A stretch of DNA of 21,832 nucleotides from Deltaproteobacteria bacterium RIFOXYA12_FULL_61_11 (GTDB lineage Bacteria; Bdellovibrionota_F; JAHFAK01; YA12-FULL-61-11), in the NCBI GenBank assembly GCA_001799195.1, contig MGSU01000012.1, positions 1 to 21,832 on the forward strand, in the 5' to 3' direction. The notes under the pieces are model-generated. The model was not told the origin of the DNA. It ran no database searches and saw only the letters and a program-made list of their open reading frames with translations. The translations under genes were made by a program, and so were the position numbers. This document shows, piece after piece, positions 8,342 through 21,832 of this stretch; the stretch's first letter is position 1; every line of letters starts with the position of its first letter.

Positions 8342-10732
8342 ATGAAGACGACTCGTCCTCTCCTCCAGGGTTCAGGGTTTTCCTTGATCGAGGTGATGCT
8401 GGTCATCATCATCTCCGCGATCATCGCCATCAGCGCCGTCAAACTCTTCAACATCTACGAGAGTCGTCTCTCGACCGAGACGGTCAAGAGCGACACGTTA
8501 CGCCAGACCGCCATCGTCTCGACCCTGCTCAAGGCCGAGATCGAGCAGATGGGGGTCAACGTCCCGCGCATGCAGGTGCCGATCATTTACCCGCAGTACG
8601 TCAATCCCGCCACCATCGTCTACGGCGACTACCGCGACAACGACATCATCACCTACCTGCGCGCCGAGAAGTATCCCGGCGACACCGATCTCTTCCACAG
8701 CTACCCGCCCATCCCGGTCGACACCACGACCGACAACAACCCGCTGACCAGTCCCATCACCCTGCGGCGCTGCACCCAGAACACGGGCGTAGCCGCCTGC
8801 ACCTCTCTCGGCACCAACTTCGACCCCTACCTCACCGGGACCTACGGCGTCGAAGCCAACGATTTTCTGCTTTTGGTCACCATGGGCCAGAGCATCCTGC
8901 TCAAGGCCACCTCGGGCGTGAGCTGCGGCGACACCACCTGCACCGTGGCCGTCGATCGGCTCAACGGTACCACGAATTACTTCAGCAACGGCGGCATCTA
9001 TTTCCGCCCACTCTGGTACCAGGAATACGACTACGACACAGAAGCGTTGATCAGCTCTCCATGCAATCTCACCGCCACCGCGCTCGACTCCTTTCCCGGC
9101 TGGTCGGCGGACGAGAACAAGGCGGAATCCTACCTCTTGAAGGTCAATCTGGTGCAACTCCAGGTGAATTCGAGCAACCAGCTCGTCCGGCTGACGAGGC
9201 GTTCCGCCGTCGGCGACCTCGACACCTTCGTCCTTCTCGACGACGCCGACAGCTTCAAGGTCGAGTACGTGCTCGACCTCCCCGGCTCGTATATCGCGAA
9301 AGACAACACCGCCGGCCGACTCAAGGCCGTGGCGGGCTTCACCTCGGGCGACCTCTTCGACGACGTCTGGGTAAAACCCAACTGGAAGAACTGGAACACG
9401 GTCTACGACCAGTACAACGAAGGCCCGAGTCAAGCAAGCTGCAGCAATCTCAGCGGGTTCGGCGGCACCTACACCGCCTATCCCTACCAGAATCCCTTCT
9501 GCCGCCCGGGCGGTACGGTCGCCGGCAATACCCAGTGCCGCTCGGCCTTCGTCAAGCAGGTGTACTTCCGCTTCGCCAACGAGGCCCTGGTCGCGGGCAC
9601 CGAAGAACGCCAACTCCGCGTCGGCGCCGACCCGGCGGCCATGAAGACCCAGACCGGGGTGCAGCTCCCCTCCTCCCTGGTCCTGGCCCTGAGCTTCAAC
9701 GACCCCACGCAGACCAAACCCGACCAGTACTCCATCTACAACGCCTCGGCCCAGAATACCATCGACCCCGGCACCTTCTACAAGTCGGCCACGCCCCTCT
9801 CCAACGCGCTGACCTCTGGCGGGCTCAAATCCGCTGGGTCGGCCGCCACCTATGCCACCATGATCAACAGCGGCTTGGTTTTCCAACCGAGCACTGATTC
9901 TGACCGTACCGGCATGCAGATCGAACGCGAAATGACCTTCTCTGCTTGGGTCAAGGTCGATGAACTGGAAAATTATTGCATAGGTGAAGCCAATCCGTAT
10001 GCCAACGTCTCTTGTAGCGGCCATGTCAATCCAGAGGCACCCCTCCACCCAAGCGATGTCACAGTCGATGACGCGAAGCCTCTCTGGCTACCCGTCGGCG
10101 ATGATTCAGGGGATGGCGGAGTACTCATGATCGCCCGGCAAACCAGCACCAACGCGGGTTATGAACTTTTCGCACGCGGCTCCAATTTCAGCGACTCCTA
10201 CCTTGATCCTGTCCCCGACGAGCCAGGAAAACAGCCCACACGTGGTTCCATCTATTTCCGCATGAACGAAACGATGAGCCTCAACCAAATCAGCATGATC
10301 TCCCTCACCGATCCATCCAATGACAAATTCCCCGATGGCTGGGCTAACATCACAATCGTGGCCAAGGCAGATCCGGGTGGCGGCAGCACTCAGGTCAACT
10401 GGACGGTCCGCAATCGTAACTGGACCCCAACTCACACCAAGACCGAGATCCTAACCGGCACGATGCTCGCCGCATCGACGTCATCACCACTGTACATCGG
10501 TACGCACAATAACAGCACGCATGGTTTCCCCGGCGACATCCCAGAAAAATATACCCTGCGCGTGCCCACGGACGAGGTCAAACTGTACAAGGAAGAGCGG
10601 CTCGACGCCCAGCAGAAGCAGGACGCCCTGCAGTTCGACTACTCGCTCAAGAACGACGTGCCGCCCTTCTACGCCGTGTTCGCCGACGACCTCGACGACG
10701 GGTTCATGCTGATGCGGCGCGAGGATCAATGA
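8342..10732 (+). CDS. Giant PilW-like minor pilin with LamG-like C-terminal domain
   Basis: The protein is 796 residues, against roughly 200-400 for ordinary PilW-type minor pilins. It has a 12-residue basic leader ending in glycine, then the prepilin peptidase site and class III helix GFSLIEVMLVIIISAIIAI with Glu at mature position 5. The helix continues through KLFNIYESRLSTETVKSD. Residues ~75-440 form a PilW-like globular region with several cysteine pairs. From ~440 (SLVLALSFND) to ~757 (LRVPTDEVKLYKEERL) the pattern is LamG/concanavalin-like: a beta strand, FSAWVKVDEL, GGVLMIARQ, GYELFARG, WANITIVAKAD and PLYIGTHNN. Such domains bind glycans or proteins, so this may be a tip adhesin of a type IV pilus or pseudopilus. 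The start has GGAG eight bases upstream. The gene is followed four bases later by a PilX-like gene. Base composition drops inside the LamG part. Core pilus genes are not in the window. Confidence 0.9.
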   Translation: MKTTRPLLQGSGFSLIEVMLVIIISAIIAISAVKLFNIYESRLSTETVKSDTLRQTAIVSTLLKAEIEQMGVNVPRMQVPIIYPQYVNPATIVYGDYRDNDIITYLRAEKYPGDTDLFHSYPPIPVDTTTDNNPLTSPITLRRCTQNTGVAACTSLGTNFDPYLTGTYGVEANDFLLLVTMGQSILLKATSGVSCGDTTCTVAVDRLNGTTNYFSNGGIYFRPLWYQEYDYDTEALISSPCNLTATALDSFPGWSADENKAESYLLKVNLVQLQVNSSNQLVRLTRRSAVGDLDTFVLLDDADSFKVEYVLDLPGSYIAKDNTAGRLKAVAGFTSGDLFDDVWVKPNWKNWNTVYDQYNEGPSQASCSNLSGFGGTYTAYPYQNPFCRPGGTVAGNTQCRSAFVKQVYFRFANEALVAGTEERQLRVGADPAAMKTQTGVQLPSSLVLALSFNDPTQTKPDQYSIYNASAQNTIDPGTFYKSATPLSNALTSGGLKSAGSAATYATMINSGLVFQPSTDSDRTGMQIEREMTFSAWVKVDELENYCIGEANPYANVSCSGHVNPEAPLHPSDVTVDDAKPLWLPVGDDSGDGGVLMIARQTSTNAGYELFARGSNFSDSYLDPVPDEPGKQPTRGSIYFRMNETMSLNQISMISLTDPSNDKFPDGWANITIVAKADPGGGSTQVNWTVRNRNWTPTHTKTEILTGTMLAASTSSPLYIGTHNNSTHGFPGDIPEKYTLRVPTDEVKLYKEERLDAQQKQDALQFDYSLKNDVPPFYAVFADDLDDGFMLMRREDQ
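9672..10610 (+). other. LamG-like domain and low-GC segment of the pilin gene
   Basis: This is the coding segment for the LamG-like domain (about residues 444-757). Within it, roughly 9880-10560 is poorer in GC: I counted 27/60 G+C for 9961-10020 and 32/60 for 10141-10200, against 41/60 for 9181-9240 in the same gene. Codons such as AAT, GAT and TCT are commoner there. Composition returns to normal from about 10561. This suggests a domain of separate origin or one that is exchanged. Confidence 0.6.
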
Positions 10733-10736
10733 CCCC

Positions 10737-11591
10737 ATGAAGAGAACGGCTATGACGACCCTGTTCGTGCGAAGTGCCCGCGCCGGCGAGCGAGGCGCAA
10801 CCCTCGTCGCGGTGCTGATCATCCTGATGGTGCTGACCCTCTTGGCCACCTCGGTCTTCGTGACCTCCTCGACCACCTCCAAGGTGATCAAGCAACACTC
10901 GGTCGATGCCGAGGTGAAGGAGCTGCTCAGGAAAGAGCTGAACAAGTTCGTGCTCTACCTGCAGGCCCGCTACCTCGACCCCAACGGCGTCGAAGACTGC
11001 TCTACGGCCGACCCCAGACACAGCAACTGCATCCCCTTCATGGACGAGGTCTCCTTCCTCGGCCTGCTCGATGGCGGCTGCGCTACGACGAATACGAACG
11101 ACCAGTGCATGCCCGCCTCCGGTGCCGAGAACAAGGCGGTCAACCTCGCCCTCGCTGCCAATACCACCCGCCGGGCGTGGATAGCCGCGAACTTGGGTAC
11201 CGAATGCTTCCTGAACGATGATCCCTCCGGTGCCGCTGGTACTGCCTGCGGGCACCCGGCCTTCTCGTACTGGGTCAAGCGACCGGTGCTCTATCCCAAC
11301 GACGCCCAGATCGCAACCTGGACGACCTATGCGGCCAAGGCGGACAACGACAACAACGTGGTCATGGCCTTCTCGCTGCGCATCTACCTGCTCGACGAGG
11401 AGACCGACGCCTCTATCAACGGCATCGAGGGGATCCTGGCCATCCATCTGAAGTGTTCCTACAACTGCAAAGCCGATGGTGCGAATCCGCTTCTTCACCG
11501 CGGTTACTGGAACACGGCCCGTAACGACAAGTTCTACCTGGCCGCGCAGCGCTACCTGTCCAGCAAGAAGAAGCTCGAAGCCCTGGAATAG
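10737..11591 (+). CDS. PilX-like pilus assembly protein
   Basis: The protein is 284 residues. The N-terminus has a basic leader with ERG before a long hydrophobic helix, GATLVAVLIILMVLTLLATSVF, the pattern of PilX N-terminal domains (type IV pilus minor pilin). As in PilX, and unlike major pilins, mature position 5 is not glutamate. The C-terminal ~230 residues are globular with about seven cysteines (LDGGCATTNTNDQCMPAS, LHLKCSYNCKAD-like region) that may form disulphides in the periplasm. The gene starts four bases after the PilW-like stop, so the two are surely one operon. Two starts are possible: ATG 10737 and ATG 10752. The second has AGAG closer to a normal spacing, but both keep the leader. 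PilX-type proteins help prime and stabilise pili; pairing with a LamG-bearing PilW suggests a shared tip complex. Confidence 0.85.
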   Translation: MKRTAMTTLFVRSARAGERGATLVAVLIILMVLTLLATSVFVTSSTTSKVIKQHSVDAEVKELLRKELNKFVLYLQARYLDPNGVEDCSTADPRHSNCIPFMDEVSFLGLLDGGCATTNTNDQCMPASGAENKAVNLALAANTTRRAWIAANLGTECFLNDDPSGAAGTACGHPAFSYWVKRPVLYPNDAQIATWTTYAAKADNDNNVVMAFSLRIYLLDEETDASINGIEGILAIHLKCSYNCKADGANPLLHRGYWNTARNDKFYLAAQRYLSSKKKLEALE

Positions 11592-11708: not shown

Positions 11709-12629
11709 TCAGAAAGCGTCGGGGCAGGCGCCCTCGGCGGCAAGGGTTACGCCCGCGCAGGAGGCCTCGCAGGCATTGTTATACGTCTCGCCGTCCGTGC
11801 CGCAGACCGGCTCGTAGGTATCCGAGCAGAGACAGATGGGCGGTTCGCACTCGCCGCGGTAGGCGATCGTCTCGCCCGCGCACCCCGCACCGCACTCGTT
11901 GCCGTAGGTTTGTCCGTTCTCGCCGCACACCGGATCCCACAGTTCGGGGCAGAAGCAGCCCACCGGTAAGCGCGGTGGCCGTTCGAAACGCACCGAAGCC
12001 AGCCGGAAGCCATACATCCAGTTGAACCAGCGGACGAAGAGGCTGCGCGGCGCGAAGACCAACTCGAGCGAGGGGACCTCGAAACGGGTCTCGAAGGAGC
12101 CGAGATCTCCGCTGTAGGTGGCCAGAACCAGGCCCTCGGGGGTGAGCACTGCCAACTCGTCCAGAGCGGGGAACGTGCTGAAACGGTCGAACGTCAGGAC
12201 GATCGCCGTGGTCCCGGCCGGTGCCACGATCGAGGCTTCCACCGTCTGCAAGGTATAAGGATGGGCGCTCTCGACCGGTCCGTTCTCCCCCGGAGCCCGT
12301 TCGGCGCAAGAAGCGCCTCGGAGGGCATCGTCGAGGCAGGCCTTACACCCGGCGCTGAAGAGCTGCTCGCAGCTCGAGCCCTCGGGAAGGCACTGTCCGC
12401 GATAGGCCTCTCCGACCCCGCCGCAATCGAGCATGCAGCCATTGCTGTAGGTCTGGCCGTCCAACCCGCAGACCGGGTCATAGAGCATGGTACAGAAGCA
12501 GCCGAAGTCCTCGGCATACTGGGCTTTGTTCCAGGGGGTCTCGGCCGGTTCGCCGCATCCGACGAACAGCACTATCATTATGAAACTGCTAGACGAGAAG
12601 AACCAACGCATCGCCACCAACCTCCCCAT
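11709..12629 (-). CDS. Kazal / CUB-like / Kazal / Kazal surface lipoprotein
   Basis: The protein is 306 residues with a hydrophobic signal ending in the lipobox LFVGC (Cys25), so it should be lipid-anchored. Domains in order: Kazal 1 at ~44-80 (DPVCGLDGQTYSNGC core); a short cysteine-rich link (87-108); a ~90-residue beta domain at ~125-216 with CUB-like spacing (APAGTTAIVLTFDRF, then LDELAVLTPEG, SFETRFEVPSLELVF, YGFRLASVRF); Kazal 2 at ~225-261 (DPVCGENGQTYGNEC); and Kazal 3 at ~266-302 (EPVCGTDGETYNNAC). Kazal domains bind and inhibit serine proteases, though many bacterial ones are structural. Two starts are possible: ATG 12629, with TGAGG upstream, and ATG 12611, with GGGAGG nine bases upstream; both keep the signal peptide. 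It is convergent with the pilin operon. The CUB call is inference; the Kazal calls are firm. Confidence 0.88.
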   Translation of the reverse strand: MGRLVAMRWFFSSSSFIMIVLFVGCGEPAETPWNKAQYAEDFGCFCTMLYDPVCGLDGQTYSNGCMLDCGGVGEAYRGQCLPEGSSCEQLFSAGCKACLDDALRGASCAERAPGENGPVESAHPYTLQTVEASIVAPAGTTAIVLTFDRFSTFPALDELAVLTPEGLVLATYSGDLGSFETRFEVPSLELVFAPRSLFVRWFNWMYGFRLASVRFERPPRLPVGCFCPELWDPVCGENGQTYGNECGAGCAGETIAYRGECEPPICLCSDTYEPVCGTDGETYNNACEASCAGVTLAAEGACPDAF

Positions 12630-13685: not shown

Positions 13686-14519
13686 GTGAAGACCTACCTC
13701 CTGCCCCTCTTCCTCTTCCTTGCAACCTTCGTCTCCATGACCTTCTTCACGTACATGCCCCTTGCCGATGGTTTCTTGTACGCCTCGACGCTGATGGGGA
13801 TTCTGGTGGCCCACGAATTGGGGCACTACCTGATGTGCCGCAGATACCACGTCCCGGCCTCCCTCCCGTTGTTCCTCCCCGCACCGAAGACCCTCTTCGG
13901 GACCCTCGGCGCGATCATTCGGATGGACCCGAACGTCCCGGATCGCCGCGTCCTCTTTGACATCGCCGTGGCAGGACCCTTGGCCGGGGCGGTGCTGGCC
14001 ATTCCCGCCCTGCTCTTCGGTCTCACGGTCTCCACCGTGGTACAGGTCCCCGAAAAAGCAAGCACCTTTGGGGATTCCCTGCTCATCGCGGGCTTGGTTC
14101 ACCTGGTCTTCGGCGCATTGCCCCCCGGCTATGACGTGCTCCTGCACCCGGTCGCCTTCGCCGGCTGGGTCGGCCTCTTCGTAACCTCGCTCAACCTTAT
14201 GCCGATCAGCCAACTCGACGGCGGACACGTCCTCTACGCCCTCGCCCCCCGGCGTGCGGCCACCCTGTACCGCCTGGCCCTGCTCTCCCTGGTTATCCTC
14301 TGCTTCGCGGTCAACCCCGGCTTCCTGCTCCTGGCCCTGCTCCTGGTGCTCTTCCGACTGCAGCACCCTCCGACCAGGAACGACCTCCTCGGCCTCGACC
14401 GCACCCGCCTCGTCGTCGCCGCCCTGGTCGGCGTCCTCTTCGTCCTGACCTTCATCCCCAACCCGGTGCAACTCGGCGCAAGCCCCCTGCAGGACCTCCT
14501 CGACCTGCTCGCCCCGTGA
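13686..14519 (+). CDS. Site-2 protease, M50 family, EGY-like
   Basis: The protein is 277 residues with about seven or eight membrane spans. The zinc motif is HELGH (43-47, in ILVAHELGHYLMCRRYH), and the third ligand is D178 in the SLNLMPISQLDGGH segment (N170, P173, D178, H181). Between them lies GTLGAIIRM followed by PDRRVLFDIAVAGPLAG, the form seen in plant EGY and related bacterial site-2 proteases rather than in RseP; there is no PDZ domain. Such enzymes cut transmembrane helices inside the membrane, often to free a regulator. The start is GTG 13686, with GAGGA directly before it, 12 bases after the rplC stop, so it is probably translated from the rplC transcript. The first ATG would be at residue 18 and would remove part of the first span. 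No substrate is identifiable nearby. Confidence 0.88.
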   Translation: MKTYLLPLFLFLATFVSMTFFTYMPLADGFLYASTLMGILVAHELGHYLMCRRYHVPASLPLFLPAPKTLFGTLGAIIRMDPNVPDRRVLFDIAVAGPLAGAVLAIPALLFGLTVSTVVQVPEKASTFGDSLLIAGLVHLVFGALPPGYDVLLHPVAFAGWVGLFVTSLNLMPISQLDGGHVLYALAPRRAATLYRLALLSLVILCFAVNPGFLLLALLLVLFRLQHPPTRNDLLGLDRTRLVVAALVGVLFVLTFIPNPVQLGASPLQDLLDLLAP

Positions 14520-14605
14520 GTAGGGTATCGCCCCTGAGCCGCTTGACCTCCTCCTCGCTTTCGTTTACTCGAAACCTTGAAATAGCCACCCTTAAGAGGT
14601 TGCAC

Positions 14606-16090
14606 ATGCGTCTCGCAGTCCTGGCTCTCATCGCCGCCATCATCCTCGGCCTCGCCGTACCCCTGATCAACATCCTCACCGCTCCTTCGTTGCCCGACGC
14701 CGACCTCCAGACCTCCGGCTCGGACCTCGGCAAGGCAGGTCCGCTGGCCGAACGCCTGATCTCGGCCTGCGCCCACTGCCACGCCTCGGAGGTCCCCCCG
14801 CCGTGGTATGCGTCCCTGCCGGGTATCGGGGCCATGATCGAGCTGGACCGCAGCCTCGGCCTCGCAGCCCTCACCCTGGACGGCGTCCTCGACAACCCGG
14901 CCCTCCCCCTCGGAGAAGTGGCTGAGGCAAAGCTGGAAGCTGTTTTCCACACCAATGAAATGCCCCCGGCCCGTTACCTCCTGGCCCATTGGACGTCCCG
15001 CCTCAGCAGGGAGCAGCGCCGAGCCGGCCTGCAATGGATCCAGGACCTCCGACGCGTCCGCCGCGGCAACGTCGACCTAGCCGACGCCTTCCGCGGCGAA
15101 CCGGTCCTGCCCATCCCCTCGCCCGCATTCGGAGACCCGAACAAAATAGCCCTCGGCCAACGGCTCTACAACGACGTCCGCCTCTCGGGCGACCGCACCG
15201 TGTCGTGTGCCACCTGCCACGAGCTGGCCAAGGGCGGCACCGACCAGTTGCCGACCTCCAAAGGCATCCGCGGCCAACTCGGGCCGATCAACTCGCCCAC
15301 GGTCTTCAATGCGGTCTTCAACGTCCGCCAGTTCTGGGACGGCCGCGCCGCCGATCTGCAGGAACAGGCCGCCGGTCCGGTCACCAATCCCCTGGAGATG
15401 GATGCGAGCTGGGACCAGGTGACAACAGACCTGTCCTCCGATCCGGTAATGGTCGCCGCCTTCACCCAGGTGTTCGGCGACGGCGCCGTGACCCAGGAAC
15501 GCGTCACCTCGGCTCTTGCAGCCTTCGAGGAAACCCTCCTCACGCCGGGAGCCCCCTTCGACCGCTATCTCCAGGGAGACGAAACAGCCATCACGGCGGA
15601 GGCCCAACAAGGCTACCGCCTCTTCGTGGAACGGGGTTGCACCTCGTGCCACCTCGGGCCAGGTCTCGGAGGCACCCATTTCGAGAAAATGGGACGCCAC
15701 AAGGATTACTTCGCCGCTCGGGGCACAACGATCACCGAGGCCGACTGGGGCCGCTTCAACGCAACGGCGAAAGAGGCTGACCGTCACTCCTTCAAGGTCC
15801 CCCTGCTGCGCAACCTCGAGACGACCTTCCCTTACCTGCACGACGCCAAAGCCCCGACCATCGAGACCGCGATAGAGGTGATGTCGACCTACCAGCTCGC
15901 CAAGCCGATCCCCGCGGCAGAACAGACCCTGGTCGCCGCCTTCCTGCGCACCCTCACCGCGCCGGTCCCACCTCCAGCCACCGACGCCCTGCCGACGGCC
16001 GAGAGCCTGCTGGACAGCTCCGGAGATGCGGCCGGGGATGCTTCCGCTGATCCGGCAATGCCCCCCCTGACCGAGGAGCAGTCCGAATAA
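14606..16090 (+). CDS. Tri-haem fusion: Haem_bd domain plus di-haem cytochrome c peroxidase
   Basis: The protein is 494 residues from ATG 14606, which has AAGAGG six bases upstream; the longer frame begins inside the end of the protease gene and lacks a ribosome site. The N-terminus is a signal or anchor helix (LAVLALIAAIILGLAVPL). Residues ~50-155 carry CAHCH (55-59) followed by EVPPPWYASLPGIGAMIELD and HTNEMPPARY, the pattern of the small Haem_bd domain. Residues ~170-460 are a di-haem peroxidase of the CcpA/MauG group with CATCH (201-205) and CTSCH (345-349), FNAVFNVRQFWDGRAADLQEQ, and FKVPLLRNLETTFPYLHDA near the end. A Met in HFEKMG (about 362) may ligate one haem. It would reduce hydrogen peroxide in the periplasm using cytochrome or quinol electrons. 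A Pro/Ala/Asp-rich tail follows. The architecture recalls tri-haem YhjA but uses a different N-domain. Confidence 0.9.
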   Translation: MRLAVLALIAAIILGLAVPLINILTAPSLPDADLQTSGSDLGKAGPLAERLISACAHCHASEVPPPWYASLPGIGAMIELDRSLGLAALTLDGVLDNPALPLGEVAEAKLEAVFHTNEMPPARYLLAHWTSRLSREQRRAGLQWIQDLRRVRRGNVDLADAFRGEPVLPIPSPAFGDPNKIALGQRLYNDVRLSGDRTVSCATCHELAKGGTDQLPTSKGIRGQLGPINSPTVFNAVFNVRQFWDGRAADLQEQAAGPVTNPLEMDASWDQVTTDLSSDPVMVAAFTQVFGDGAVTQERVTSALAAFEETLLTPGAPFDRYLQGDETAITAEAQQGYRLFVERGCTSCHLGPGLGGTHFEKMGRHKDYFAARGTTITEADWGRFNATAKEADRHSFKVPLLRNLETTFPYLHDAKAPTIETAIEVMSTYQLAKPIPAAEQTLVAAFLRTLTAPVPPPATDALPTAESLLDSSGDAAGDASADPAMPPLTEEQSE

Positions 16091-17496: not shown

Positions 17497-20400
17497 TCAC
17501 TGGCCCGATTTCGAGGCCGCCACGGGCAGGGGTTCAGCGGAGAGGCGTTCCTGTAAGCCGAGGTCGCCGGTGACGAGTCCCTCGGACACGATCAGGTGAT
17601 CTCCGACCTCGCTCGAGAGGGGTTCGAGGGCCAGGTTGAAGACCCTGCGCTGGTACGAGCGGCGTTCGAGCTTGGCGATGGGGACGAAGCTCCCGTCCTC
17701 GCGGAGGAGGAAGTCGAGCGCGGTGAGCTCGCGCGCCAGTTTCAACCCGGCGCGGGTCATCATCGGATGTTTCTCGGAAACCCCGAGGGTCTCACCGCTC
17801 GCGGTCGTCAGATAGATGACCTTCTGCCGTTCCTTGCCGGCGACAGCGCGTTGGACCTTGCGCGGCCGGTCTTTGCTGTCGACGACCTCGTGCTCAGGCA
17901 GGATGCGCTCGACCGGAAGGTATTCCTCGGCGCCGACCTTGATCAGGGTCCCTTCGACGAAACAGCCGTTGATGCGCGGGTCCCGACCGCAGGAAACCCC
18001 GCTCGTGCCGGGTTTGGTGCAGACGCAATCGTCGTAGCATTTATAGATCAAGCTCTCCTTGCCCACGACCGGGGTGCAGAGCAGCTCGTTGCGCACCGTG
18101 CAGGTGCAGACCTCGCTGCAATTGACCACGCCCTCGTTGGGCACCGGATCGACCGGATCGACCTCGTAACACAGCTCGTCGGGTGAACAGGAAATGGCGG
18201 TGTCATACCCCGGATCGACGCAGGTGCATTTGACCTTGGCCGTGGGCTCGAGGTGATAGCCGACCGGCGGATTGCTGCAGATCACCGAACCGTTGGCAGC
18301 ACACATACACACATCGCTGCACGGACTGGTGATCTCTCCCTTGGGCGGTATCGAGGGTAATTCCTCATAGGCCGGAGGATCCGGCACGCAGGAGAGAGCA
18401 TCGTCATGGCCTGGATCCACGCACGTGCAATCGTTCTGACAAGCCGCGGTGCGGTCCCAGAAACCGACCGGCTGACCGGCACAGAGGATCTCGGTGCCAT
18501 TCGGGGAACAGATGCAGGCCTCGCTGCATAGTTCTTCTCCTGCCGCGGGCTCCGGATGCTCGGGCAGGGATTCGAAGGCGGGCGGATTAGGGGTACAGGT
18601 CAGGGCCGAGTCATAGCCCTGGTTGTCGCAATGACAGTCGACCTTGCAGGTTGCCTGGGTCAGGTCGCGATACCCGATCGCCGCGGCGGAACAGACAATG
18701 GAACCATCGGCTCGGCAGATACAGGCATCCTCGCACTTCGCACCCGCTTCGAAGGCCGGGGGTTCGGTCGGCAGGGCTTCGAACGCATCGTGGTCCGGCA
18801 CACAGGTCAGGGCCCAGTCGTACCCCGGGTTGTCGCAGGTACACGAGGTCTGACAAGGACCGGTCTCGTCGTGATACCCATAGGGCGGGGTGGCACAGAC
18901 GATGGCGCCATCGGGGATGCACAGACAGGCCACGCTGCACACGTCCTCGGGGGTGCTCGCGGTGGGCGGGTGAATGGGTACGACCTCGTAGGCCTGCTCG
19001 TCCGGAGTACAGGTCACCGAGGCCTCGACCCCGGGGTTGTCGCAGTGGCACAGCGGTTGACAGGCATCCGTGTGGTCCTTGAAACCGAAGGGGGGACCGG
19101 CACAGACAATGGTCCCATCGGGCGCGCACAAACATGCCTCGGAACAGACGCTGTCCGAGGAACTGGTCGGAGCCACCGCTTGCTCGTACGCCAACACATC
19201 CGGGCAGGTGACTGCAGGGTCATAGCCCGCCTGATTGCAACTGCAACCCCCGGTAGGGGCAGTGCAGCGGCTGGTCTTGTTGTAATGGCCTTCCGGGGTC
19301 TGTTGGCAGGCGATGACCGCATCGGGCATGCAGATACAGGCACTGCCGCAGGCCATTTCGCCGCCGACCTCGGGCAGGACCGGGGCGGTATAGGCCATGA
19401 TCTCCGAGCCAGTCCCTCCGTTGCAGGTCATGACCGGAGAGTCGGCGCCACCTTCGCACCGACAAGCCGCTGTGCAACGGGAGAGCTTGTCGTAGAGCCC
19501 CTCCGGGGTCTGCTCATGGGTCAGACAGGTCAAACTGCCGTTGGCCTCGCAATGACAGGTTTCGAGGCACGAAACGATATCCTCTGCCGCGGTCAGGGCC
19601 TGAACGCGAATGGCCTCGTAGAATTGGCGGTCCTCGTCGGAGAGCAAGGGCGCCGCGGCGAGGGCCTCGGCCACGGCCCGGTAGTTGTAATTGGGCAGTG
19701 TGAACTCGTCCTCGAACGAGAGGGGGAGATGGCGCTGGTATTCGACGATCGGCACCTCGACAACGACCTCGGCGAGTTCTTCACCGCCGACGAGGACGAC
19801 CTCGTCCCCTCCTTGGTACTGGGCGACTTCGGAGCGCAGCATCTCGTCGACAAAGGTCAGGGCCTTCTCCACGGCCACATCGACCTCCACGGTCTCGCTC
19901 GCCTGGGCAGGAGCGAAGAACTTGAACTGGGGCATCAGGCGGTTCAAGGCGATCGCGCCTTTCTTCCGGGAATACTTCACCCCGGCCGCAGCAAAGAAAT
20001 CGCTGTAGCCGAGTAGGCTCTTCTTGGTCGGATCGAGCACCGCGCGACTGGCGTAGTAGACCATGCCCCTCGGTCTCTCCTCAGCCTGTAAGAATTTTTT
20101 GCTGTCGCGTGCAAACACGTCTTTCAATTGCTTGTGGACATCGGTCTCATCCACGGTGCGGGGATTGACCTGGTTGAGATAGAAGTTGAGGTTCATCACC
20201 CGCTCATCGCTGCAACGCCCATCCTCGTTGGAGTCGAGACAGATGAACAGGAGTACGGCGATGGGATCCGTCAGGCCCTCGGGAATCTTGAACTCGGTCG
20301 AGAAGCGCGGGCCCTCCGCCAACGTCGAGGTCAGCAACCCCTTCGCGGTGAGATTGTCTACCAGGAAGGGCTTCCCGCCGACCACGGGTTCGACCGTGGC

Positions 20401-20874
20401 GATGATAGGTTTATCCTGCACGTTCGCCTGAACGAGGTCGTGTTCGCCGAGGTGGTTGCGATGGACGAGGTTCAGCCGTAAGGCCAGGGGAACCTTCTCG
20501 GCTTTGTCCCAGGCTGCGAGCGAGGTACTCCCCTCCCCTGCCTGAAAACGGAACAAGTCCTCGAAGGAGGAGAGTTGAGTGATGATGTCGGTGTTGTAAC
20601 GTTCGACCAAGTGCTCCGGAACGTCTTCTGGATCGAGGCTGGTAGCGGCATGGTTGTTCCGTTGGTACCAGGAAGAGTTGAGGACTGGTGTGGGCGTTAC
20701 AGGATCCGGTTCCGGTTCCGCAGTCTCGTCCGGTTGGACCGGCGCTGGATCCTGCTCCTGCTCCGGCACCTCACCTTCTTGTTGTGGCTGCACCCCGGGT
20801 TGGGGATCGTTGCCCGAGCAACCGATGATCCCTGCGACTACGAAGATCCACGCAAGTATGACAGGTCGTAGCAT
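17497..20874 (-). CDS. Cysteine-repeat lipoprotein with C-terminal Hint autoprocessing domain
   Basis: The protein is 1125 residues from ATG 20874-20872, preceded by GGGGGGA. The longer frame upstream is not signal-like. Layout: signal peptide with lipobox GIIGC (Cys19); a Pro/Glu/Gln-rich linker to ~65; an unrecognised domain ~66-430 containing a calcium-loop-like DSNEDGRCSDE (from ~214); eight cysteine repeats at ~436-970; and a Hint domain at 971-~1105. The Hint domain starts CFVEGTLIKV, with Cys971 as the nucleophile after Gly. It has GVSEKHPMMT (His1036, block B), VFNLALEP, and ends GDHLIVSEGLVTGD where inteins end in HN, so N-side cleavage without splicing is expected. A ~20-residue tail follows. 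By analogy with hedgehog, the Hint domain would release or transfer the cysteine-rich part. I know no characterised protein with this exact order. The SDR gene lies 108 bases downstream. Confidence 0.9.
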   Translation of the reverse strand: MLRPVILAWIFVVAGIIGCSGNDPQPGVQPQQEGEVPEQEQDPAPVQPDETAEPEPDPVTPTPVLNSSWYQRNNHAATSLDPEDVPEHLVERYNTDIITQLSSFEDLFRFQAGEGSTSLAAWDKAEKVPLALRLNLVHRNHLGEHDLVQANVQDKPIIATVEPVVGGKPFLVDNLTAKGLLTSTLAEGPRFSTEFKIPEGLTDPIAVLLFICLDSNEDGRCSDERVMNLNFYLNQVNPRTVDETDVHKQLKDVFARDSKKFLQAEERPRGMVYYASRAVLDPTKKSLLGYSDFFAAAGVKYSRKKGAIALNRLMPQFKFFAPAQASETVEVDVAVEKALTFVDEMLRSEVAQYQGGDEVVLVGGEELAEVVVEVPIVEYQRHLPLSFEDEFTLPNYNYRAVAEALAAAPLLSDEDRQFYEAIRVQALTAAEDIVSCLETCHCEANGSLTCLTHEQTPEGLYDKLSRCTAACRCEGGADSPVMTCNGGTGSEIMAYTAPVLPEVGGEMACGSACICMPDAVIACQQTPEGHYNKTSRCTAPTGGCSCNQAGYDPAVTCPDVLAYEQAVAPTSSSDSVCSEACLCAPDGTIVCAGPPFGFKDHTDACQPLCHCDNPGVEASVTCTPDEQAYEVVPIHPPTASTPEDVCSVACLCIPDGAIVCATPPYGYHDETGPCQTSCTCDNPGYDWALTCVPDHDAFEALPTEPPAFEAGAKCEDACICRADGSIVCSAAAIGYRDLTQATCKVDCHCDNQGYDSALTCTPNPPAFESLPEHPEPAAGEELCSEACICSPNGTEILCAGQPVGFWDRTAACQNDCTCVDPGHDDALSCVPDPPAYEELPSIPPKGEITSPCSDVCMCAANGSVICSNPPVGYHLEPTAKVKCTCVDPGYDTAISCSPDELCYEVDPVDPVPNEGVVNCSEVCTCTVRNELLCTPVVGKESLIYKCYDDCVCTKPGTSGVSCGRDPRINGCFVEGTLIKVGAEEYLPVERILPEHEVVDSKDRPRKVQRAVAGKERQKVIYLTTASGETLGVSEKHPMMTRAGLKLARELTALDFLLREDGSFVPIAKLERRSYQRRVFNLALEPLSSEVGDHLIVSEGLVTGDLGLQERLSAEPLPVAASKSGQ
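17500..17964 (-). other. Hint (hedgehog/intein) domain-coding segment
   Basis: This segment codes for residues 971-1125 of the lipoprotein. Visible Hint blocks are the initial CFVEGTLI after Gly, a PVERILPEHEVVD strand pair, YLTTASGETLGVSEKHPMMT, the ALDFLLREDGSF segment, VFNLALEP and DHLIVSEGLVTGD. The final Asn of inteins and a downstream extein are missing; only ~20 residues follow. This fits a one-sided cleavage domain. Confidence 0.85.
17965..19569 (-). repeat. Eight tandem cysteine-rich protein repeats
   Basis: This segment codes for residues ~436-970. Each unit is about 66-78 residues with seven or eight cysteines. The rough consensus is C-x3-C-x-C-x2-DG-x-I-x-C, then a P-x-G-[YF] segment, C-x3-C-x-C-x-NPGYD-x-A-[LV]-[ST]-C and a Pro-rich spacer with A-[YF]-E. 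Units begin near residues 436, 509, 577, 646, 714, 783, 852 and 919. The first two are divergent (PEGLYDK / PEGHYNK), the middle ones are most alike, and the last leads straight into the Hint cysteine. DNA identity between units is modest, so these are old duplications. Confidence 0.85.
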
Positions 20875-21033: not shown

Positions 21034-21832
21034 TCAACGCGAGCCTCCAGGGTCTTTCCCCTCCAGGACCGCGGCGACGGCCGCCGGCACGTCGAGCAAT
21101 CCATGGCCGTTCTCGTGGTCGGGTCCTTCTGCCCCGAGGTCCTTAGCGGTGGAACGCAGGACCTCGTAGAGCGCTTGCGGAGGAAGTTCCGGAGCTGCTT
21201 CTTGGAGCAAAGCGATGGCCGCGGTGACATGCGGCGCGGCCATGGACGTCCCCGACATCTCTACCGCACCCTTACCGCGTCGATCGCACGAGACAATGTC
21301 CGCTCCTGGGGCCATGAGATCGGGTTTGAGCACCTCATCGTCCGGAGAACCGAAGGAACTGCTTCCTGCCCGCTCCCCATCGGCGGCCACCGAGCCGACA
21401 GTCAAGAAATGCGGGCTGTTGCCGGGGAAGGTGATCGAGCCGGGACCCTCGAGGCCGTCATTGCCCGCGGATTTGACCAGGGCCACCCCGCGCTCCAGCA
21501 AGCCCTTGCCCACCCGGTCCATCAGGAGCTCATAGGTCAGGCGTCTCTCCTCGCTACTCCTGCTCGAGAGGGGAATGGTGAACGAACAGTTGATCACCGT
21601 GGCTCCGTCCCTGGTCTCGGGATCCCCGTCAGGATCGGCCATCCAATCCAAGGCGGCCGCGACCACGGTCAGGAAACTCCGGCCCTTGACGATATCCCGC
21701 ACTCGGCGCAAGCGCTCAGGAAGAGTGAAAGGATTCAATATCTTGAGAGGATTAAGGGTCAAGACCTCAGGTTCATCGATGACGTTGGCCACAATCAGAC
21801 TCACCCCCGGGGCCACCCCGAAACGGTCTCCC
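21034..21832 (-). CDS. Subtilisin-family serine protease (S8), cut by right edge
   Basis: The frame is open to the right edge and ends at the stop near 21034, giving ~265 C-terminal residues. It starts within GDRFGVAPGVSLIVANVID, the strand that follows the His motif in subtilases; the catalytic Asp and the HGTHVAG motif lie outside the window. Visible motifs are ALVKSAGNDG (oxyanion-hole Asn), FLTVGSVAADGERAGSSSFGS, KPDLMAPGADIVS and the catalytic Ser in MSGTSMAAPHVTAAIALL. The C-terminus GHGLLDVPAAVAAVLEGKDPGGSR closes the domain with no further extension. An insertion between GVAPGV and the NCSF strand (roughly 50 residues, including LTLNPLKILNPFTLPERL) is longer than in subtilisin. Its location relative to the membrane cannot be told. 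It lies 159 bases upstream of the Hint lipoprotein on the same strand, so co-expression is possible. Confidence 0.92.
   Translation of the reverse strand, partial: GDRFGVAPGVSLIVANVIDEPEVLTLNPLKILNPFTLPERLRRVRDIVKGRSFLTVVAAALDWMADPDGDPETRDGATVINCSFTIPLSSRSSEERRLTYELLMDRVGKGLLERGVALVKSAGNDGLEGPGSITFPGNSPHFLTVGSVAADGERAGSSSFGSPDDEVLKPDLMAPGADIVSCDRRGKGAVEMSGTSMAAPHVTAAIALLQEAAPELPPQALYEVLRSTAKDLGAEGPDHENGHGLLDVPAAVAAVLEGKDPGGSR

Follow-up and report, generated by a model that had tools for sequence, protein, structure and literature searches.

What a Hint domain might be doing at the C-terminus of a bacterial lipoprotein is the question raised by a single gene on the minus strand (17497..20874) of the window, i.e. 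the whole 21,832-nucleotide stretch of DNA analysed here. The open frame runs from 20874 to 17497, encodes a protein of 1125 aa from now on referred to as the Hint lipoprotein, and begins with an ATG preceded by a Shine-Dalgarno-like G-rich run (GAGCGGGGGGAAT-ATG). The earlier note had read this frame as a lipobox followed by a linker, a novel domain, eight cysteine repeats and a C-terminal Hint domain. Translation confirms its coordinates, frame and residue numbers, and the cysteine list, alignment and profiles recover every one of these parts, so that the feature can be regarded as real and well described. Residues 1-19 (20818..20874) form a lipoprotein signal peptide with the lipobox I-I-G-C19, C19 being the lipid acceptor, and based on this N-terminal motif the protein is a predicted bacterial lipoprotein. 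The signal peptide is followed by a Pro/Glu/Gln-rich linker (residues 20-62, 20689..20817), an orphan N-domain of ~370 residues (residues 64-435, 19570..20685), eight cysteine repeats (residues 434-967, 17974..19575), the Hint domain (residues 971-1104, 17563..17964) and a 21-residue tail (17500..17562) containing neither a C-extein nor a toxin or sterol-recognition region, all encoded on the minus strand.

The cysteine inventory consists of C19, C212 and C221 within the conserved N-domain motif CLDSNxDGRCSDE, 64 cysteines in the repeats (cysteine list and alignment A12) and C971. Each repeat carries eight cysteines in the pattern C-x3-C-x-C-x7/8-C ... C-x3-C-x-C-x9/10-C, with one cysteine displaced in repeat 7 (C902). 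Cys971 does come after the last repeat, as had been claimed, but not directly, as eight residues (GRDPRING) separate it from the last repeat cysteine, C962. The structure of a single repeat was predicted at a pLDDT of 86, and no match was found in the PDB, either by sequence or by Foldseek using the predicted structure. Given a good model and no Foldseek match in the PDB, no known fold can be named for the repeat. The N-domain is conserved in the 4 full-length paralogs of the host genome, was found in none of the other genomes among the 386 searched and has no relative in the PDB by sequence. Kinship with the N-terminal part of myxobacterial lipoproteins was considered and found no support (hhalign probability 0.2).

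Searches with the single sequence gave little indication of what the C-terminal domain is. The whole protein had no match in Pfam, NCBIfam intein_Nterm (E 0.0042) and PF14890 (E 0.0047) stayed below their cut-offs, the polymorphic toxin HINT family PF07591 reached 15.0 bits against a cut-off of 27.7, and a single-sequence search of the PDB returned weak hits or nothing. The profile search that the earlier note had proposed as a check did yield Hint and bacterial intein-like (BIL) matches: a first family profile, built from the five Hint domains of the host genome and three relatives from a Myxococcota genome (G029), matched many inteins as well as the BIL domain 2lwy (2.1e-10) and hedgehog 6td6 (3.9e-5), and a wider profile of sixteen rows matched 2lwy at 5e-13. 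An AlphaFold2 model, resting on a six-sequence alignment and of low confidence in the repeats, reached a pLDDT of about 80-94 over the core of the Hint domain; loci retrieved through the genome searches did not enter the structure prediction. VIA-align superposed the predicted Hint domain best on BIL2 6y75 (Z 19.6), followed by 2lwy (18.8) and hedgehog 1at0 (17.8). Many rows of the structure alignments pair C971 (model residue 122) with intein residue 1, and D1104 (model residue 255) is paired with the last intein residue, for example residue 440 of Mtu RecA. Because the family profile is clear and the predicted fold unambiguous, the domain starting at Cys971 is firmly predicted to belong to the Hint superfamily, well beyond what chance would give, despite the weak single-sequence matches.

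The first step of Hint chemistry, an N-S acyl shift, needs Cys1 together with the block B motif [ST]xxH, while C-terminal cleavage and splicing need a His-Asn pair and a following nucleophile. Cys971, whose codon lies at 17962..17964 (minus strand), aligns with intein residue 1 and is invariant across the Hint alignments, making G970-C971 the expected scissile bond. Block B is represented by S1033-E-K-H1036 (17767..17778, minus strand), and none of the 54 non-redundant relatives has lost either Cys1 or [ST]xxH. In place of the C-terminal His-Asn the protein has G1103-D1104-L-G-L-Q1108 (17551..17568, minus strand), as seen in alignments and predicted structure, and the corresponding signature G[DS]xxxQ stands at this position in 54/54 relatives (32 D, 22 S; one with Ala for Gly). 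Five further rows in this residue count are inteins or toxin-type HINTs, which served as a contrast set outside the 54. At the block F position that holds a catalytic Asp in many inteins, the protein has Asn, which speaks against the cleavage proposed below. Judging from these alignments, the residues for N-side chemistry are conserved and those for C-side chemistry are lost family-wide, as in hedgehog.

The two observations that the earlier note had raised against splicing, a missing terminal Asn and the lack of an extein, are both borne out: the domain ends in Gly1103-Asp1104-Leu1105 and the 21-residue tail, and there is no +1 nucleophile and no C-extein. Its case against a polymorphic-toxin arrangement likewise stands, as no domain follows Hint and PF07591 remains below its cut-off, with no match above it anywhere in the host genome. 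The weak PF14890 and PF07591 matches are what could be cited in favor of an intein or a polymorphic-toxin HINT, a reading that is hardly credible for a protein with neither His-Asn nor a +1 nucleophile and with no C-extein or toxin after the domain. An intein as such was rejected on account of the G-D at the position of the terminal His-Asn and the short tail. For a domain with Cys971 at residue 1 that has neither a terminal Asn nor a C-extein, the expected chemistry is formation of a thioester and a cut in front of C971, i.e. sequence and model point to a domain built for this one cleavage and unable to splice. Cleavage on the N-terminal side (PMC7765530) and cleavage without splicing (PMC4031507) have both been reported for BILs lacking the C-terminal motif.

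Five Hint genes could be identified in the host genome: the one described here, a pair of neighbours on contig 26, a single gene on contig 112 and another on contig 89, the latter cut off by the contig start. The three other full-length paralogs carry the lipoboxes LVGC, FLGC and LVAC. In the contig 112 paralog (L013:5739-8453, plus strand), the CxC repeats are replaced by repeats of the form WTCSSxYxCVxxxxGxYSxxxACxxxC, Kunitz-like by eye and matching no Pfam family. As these differ from the CxC repeats, the Hint domain caps different cysteine-rich parts. Immediately upstream of this paralog lies a gene (L013:3555-5588, plus strand) whose single frame joins a radical SAM/SPASM enzyme to a lipoprotein-like part (YGV repeats, PrcB_C domain), and on contig 26 another radical SAM gene is arranged tail to tail with the Hint genes.

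Scanning contigs with the Hint sequence alone returned no relatives, and alignment A7 returned three loci. Across genomes, the Hint profile matched 67 of 145 members of the class of G029 (Myxococcota) and 40 of 58 members of a second class (that of G359), including 14 matches in a single genome of the latter (G560; L076 and others), which represents a large expansion of exported Hint proteins. Several long exported proteins of this second class end in [ILM]xTGDLxxQ, as do the Hint domains of the host genome. In the survey of 386 genomes, matches beyond the host genome, G029 and G359 were inteins or toxin-type HINTs. The host phylum is represented in this analysis by two genomes, the host and one other. 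The Myxococcota proteins are of two kinds: one is short and secreted, with a CEPGCYTPDQ-like Hint, and the other is a lipoprotein of ~600-700 residues whose Hint is NACLAEGT-like and ends in VGDxxxQ. By hhalign, the host Hints align with the myxobacterial lipoprotein Hints at E 5.7e-26 and with the short secreted two-Cys group at 3.5e-13. In a tree computed with the C-terminal signature left out, the five host Hints form one clade (98/94), whose moderately supported sister group (84/80) is that of the myxobacterial lipoproteins. A bacterium from Delaware Bay encodes a secreted protein in which DUF4215 or myxo_disulf_rpt cysteine repeats precede a Hint ending in VTGDLLVQ. A single in-frame stop was observed in several Hint matches of one genus (L081, L085 and places in G580, G583 and G584).

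Cysteine counts bear on the state of Cys971. Lipid cysteine aside, the number of cysteines in the exported part before Cys1 is even in 45 of 47 related proteins, and in 46 of the 47 the Hint part holds no second cysteine, so that by count Cys1 has no partner; it should be noted that the 47 proteins are mutually related and non-independent, so that this count is not a probability. Against this picture, an odd cysteine count was found in 2 of the 8 myxobacterial lipoproteins checked. Based on sequence and model, we propose that the Hint lipoprotein is probably a lipid-anchored, disulfide-rich protein of the cell surface or periplasm that is cut once by its C-terminal Hint domain, the cut being resolved by hydrolysis. 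After export to the surface or periplasm and presumed disulfide formation, Cys971, the sole cysteine unpaired by count, would attack the carbonyl of Gly970. The resulting N-S acyl shift, aided by S1033xxH1036, would give a thioester, which water or a small nucleophile would then presumably resolve, releasing the Hint domain and leaving the N-domain and cysteine repeats on their lipid anchor. Splicing would not ensue, as cleavage at the C-terminal side and ligation require a His-Asn pair and a +1 nucleophile, and the protein has neither. This one-cut reading is supported by the five paralogs, which differ in repeat number and type but share a conserved Hint and, in the four full-length ones, a conserved N-domain, and by the same layout of an exported part plus a C-terminal Hint in myxobacterial lipoproteins and in the secreted DUF4215 protein. 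That very layout, in which Hint came last in every exported protein examined, would also suit a Hint that never cleaves and acts as a structural cap or as a sorting signal, e.g. for display at the surface, with the fold kept and the chain uncut, and the conservation of G[DS]xxxQ and downstream residues at the Hint C-terminus suggests some further role. We consider such a cap decidedly unlikely, however, because all 54 relatives keep Cys1 and [ST]xxH, for which a domain of structural function alone would have no use.

The Hint lipoprotein was also compared with the hedgehog Hog domain (1at0, 6td6). Fold, Cys1 and [ST]xxH are common to both, neither has His-Asn, and in both cases Hint sits C-terminal to an exported, anchored domain. 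The Hint lipoprotein differs in being bacterial and in lacking a Hedge domain, a sterol-recognition region and Asp303, the latter (position 46 of Hog) aligning with Ala1012 in the profile alignment. Residues and predicted fold thus liken the Hint lipoprotein to hedgehog in its first step without making it a hedgehog member. The hedgehog-like label of the earlier note was apt for first-step residues, fold and layout, but not for kinship, as its closest kin are Hint proteins exported by bacteria. Hedgehog-type sterol transfer would draw on the likeness in fold (Z 17.8) and the 6td6 profile match and is nevertheless very improbable in a protein with no sterol-recognition region and no Asp303 equivalent, encoded by an 87% complete genome in which neither squalene epoxidase nor a sterol or hopanoid cyclase was matched. 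This hedgehog-specific lipid transfer was rejected as unsupported, given the 21-residue tail, Ala1012 and the unmatched epoxidase and cyclase. Another surface molecule, a non-sterol acceptor, might instead take over the Gly970 acyl group from the thioester through an amine or hydroxyl, which would attach the C-terminus of the cysteine-rich part to it covalently. Such acyl transfer would fit the hedgehog-like N-side chemistry, the anchored, cysteine-rich, Hint-terminated layout and the conserved Cys1, and outside the cell the thioester would presumably face nucleophiles. We regard it as fairly unlikely, since the short tail offers no acceptor-binding region after Hint, an Asp at the Asp303 position is found only in one contig 26 paralog (C26b), and the squalene epoxidase and cyclase searches in the ~87% complete genome were negative. 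Extended further, this idea gives an unlikely bacterial counterpart of hedgehog maturation, in which the C-terminus of a lipid-anchored, cysteine-rich, ligand-like protein would be handed from the thioester to a non-sterol acceptor on the envelope or on a neighbouring cell, so that one covalent route would display the varied cysteine-rich ectodomains of this genome. Single cleavage resolved by hydrolysis remains the preferred reading.

BIL domains are the best profile and structure matches of the Hint lipoprotein. A-type BILs end in His-Asn, whereas the Hint lipoprotein has G-D, and assignment to the A-type was rejected for this reason. B-type BILs are described as having intein N-side motifs, no block G and sequence motifs of their own; in the Hint lipoprotein block G is absent and the N-side motifs are present, which makes it a candidate for this type at most. 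The C-type BIL of Bd2400 reportedly undergoes N-terminal self-cleavage, a result attributed to Dori-Bachash in 2009. The Myxococcota two-Cys group, together with the Hint group of Burglin, presumably corresponds to the C-type BILs of predatory bacteria. The region upstream of Hint consists of cysteine repeats in our protein and looks unlike the two-Cys region of this Myxococcota group. A passage in PMC9185962, citing Dori-Bachash 2009, assigns to C-type BILs a putative predator-specific domain, PPS-1. Burglin 2008 (PMC2362128) described, as a separate subgroup, bacterial proteins that end in a Hint-like domain preceded by two conserved cysteines, some of them with signal peptides; Myxococcus xanthus MXAN_6253 and Stigmatella STIAU_1829 are among its members. 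It is this unnamed group to which the Hint lipoprotein is nearest. Its members are exported, carry Hint at the C-terminus and occur in predatory lineages, and Myxococcota proteins built alike share Cys1, [ST]xxH and G[DS]xxxQ. In the unnamed group, the part upstream of Hint is short, with two to four cysteines, and the end is GS, whereas the Hint lipoprotein has a lipobox, the orphan N-domain, tandem cysteine repeats and a TGDLxLQ end. The lipoprotein-Hint proteins of Archangium and its relatives combine a lipobox, an N-terminal part of 420-460 aa and a C-terminal Hint with a VGDxxxQ end, but this N-terminal part is not detectably related, tandem cysteine repeats are missing and other residues precede Cys1. 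Proteins of this family kind had been glimpsed before. Judged by the open papers, what appears to be new is the tandem-repeat lipoprotein in this phylum, the G[DS]xxxQ signature common to the family and how widely the family is spread.

Little work has been done on Hint domains other than those of inteins and hedgehog. The relatives described here make up a large exported set that spans Myxococcota, a second class and the host phylum, itself represented by two genomes, and that combines one C-terminal signature with differing ectodomains. If the proposed cleavage is true, the first step of hedgehog would serve bacteria as a general means of maturing surface proteins; if transfer is true, a new protein-conjugation chemistry would be at hand. 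The window also encodes a protein of 306 aa that contains three Kazal-type protease inhibitor domains (11709-12629, minus strand), which, together with the Kunitz-like repeats of the contig 112 paralog, suggests that protease-inhibitor-like exported proteins are encoded in this genome. Upstream of the Hint gene and on the same strand, a subtilase-like protein (21034-21816) adjoins the contig end. On the plus strand, the gene for a 796 aa protein with a prepilin N-terminal motif precedes that for a 284 aa protein matching PilX_N weakly (8342-11591), and an M50 peptidase gene is directly followed by one for a MauG-like di-haem cytochrome c peroxidase (13686-16090).
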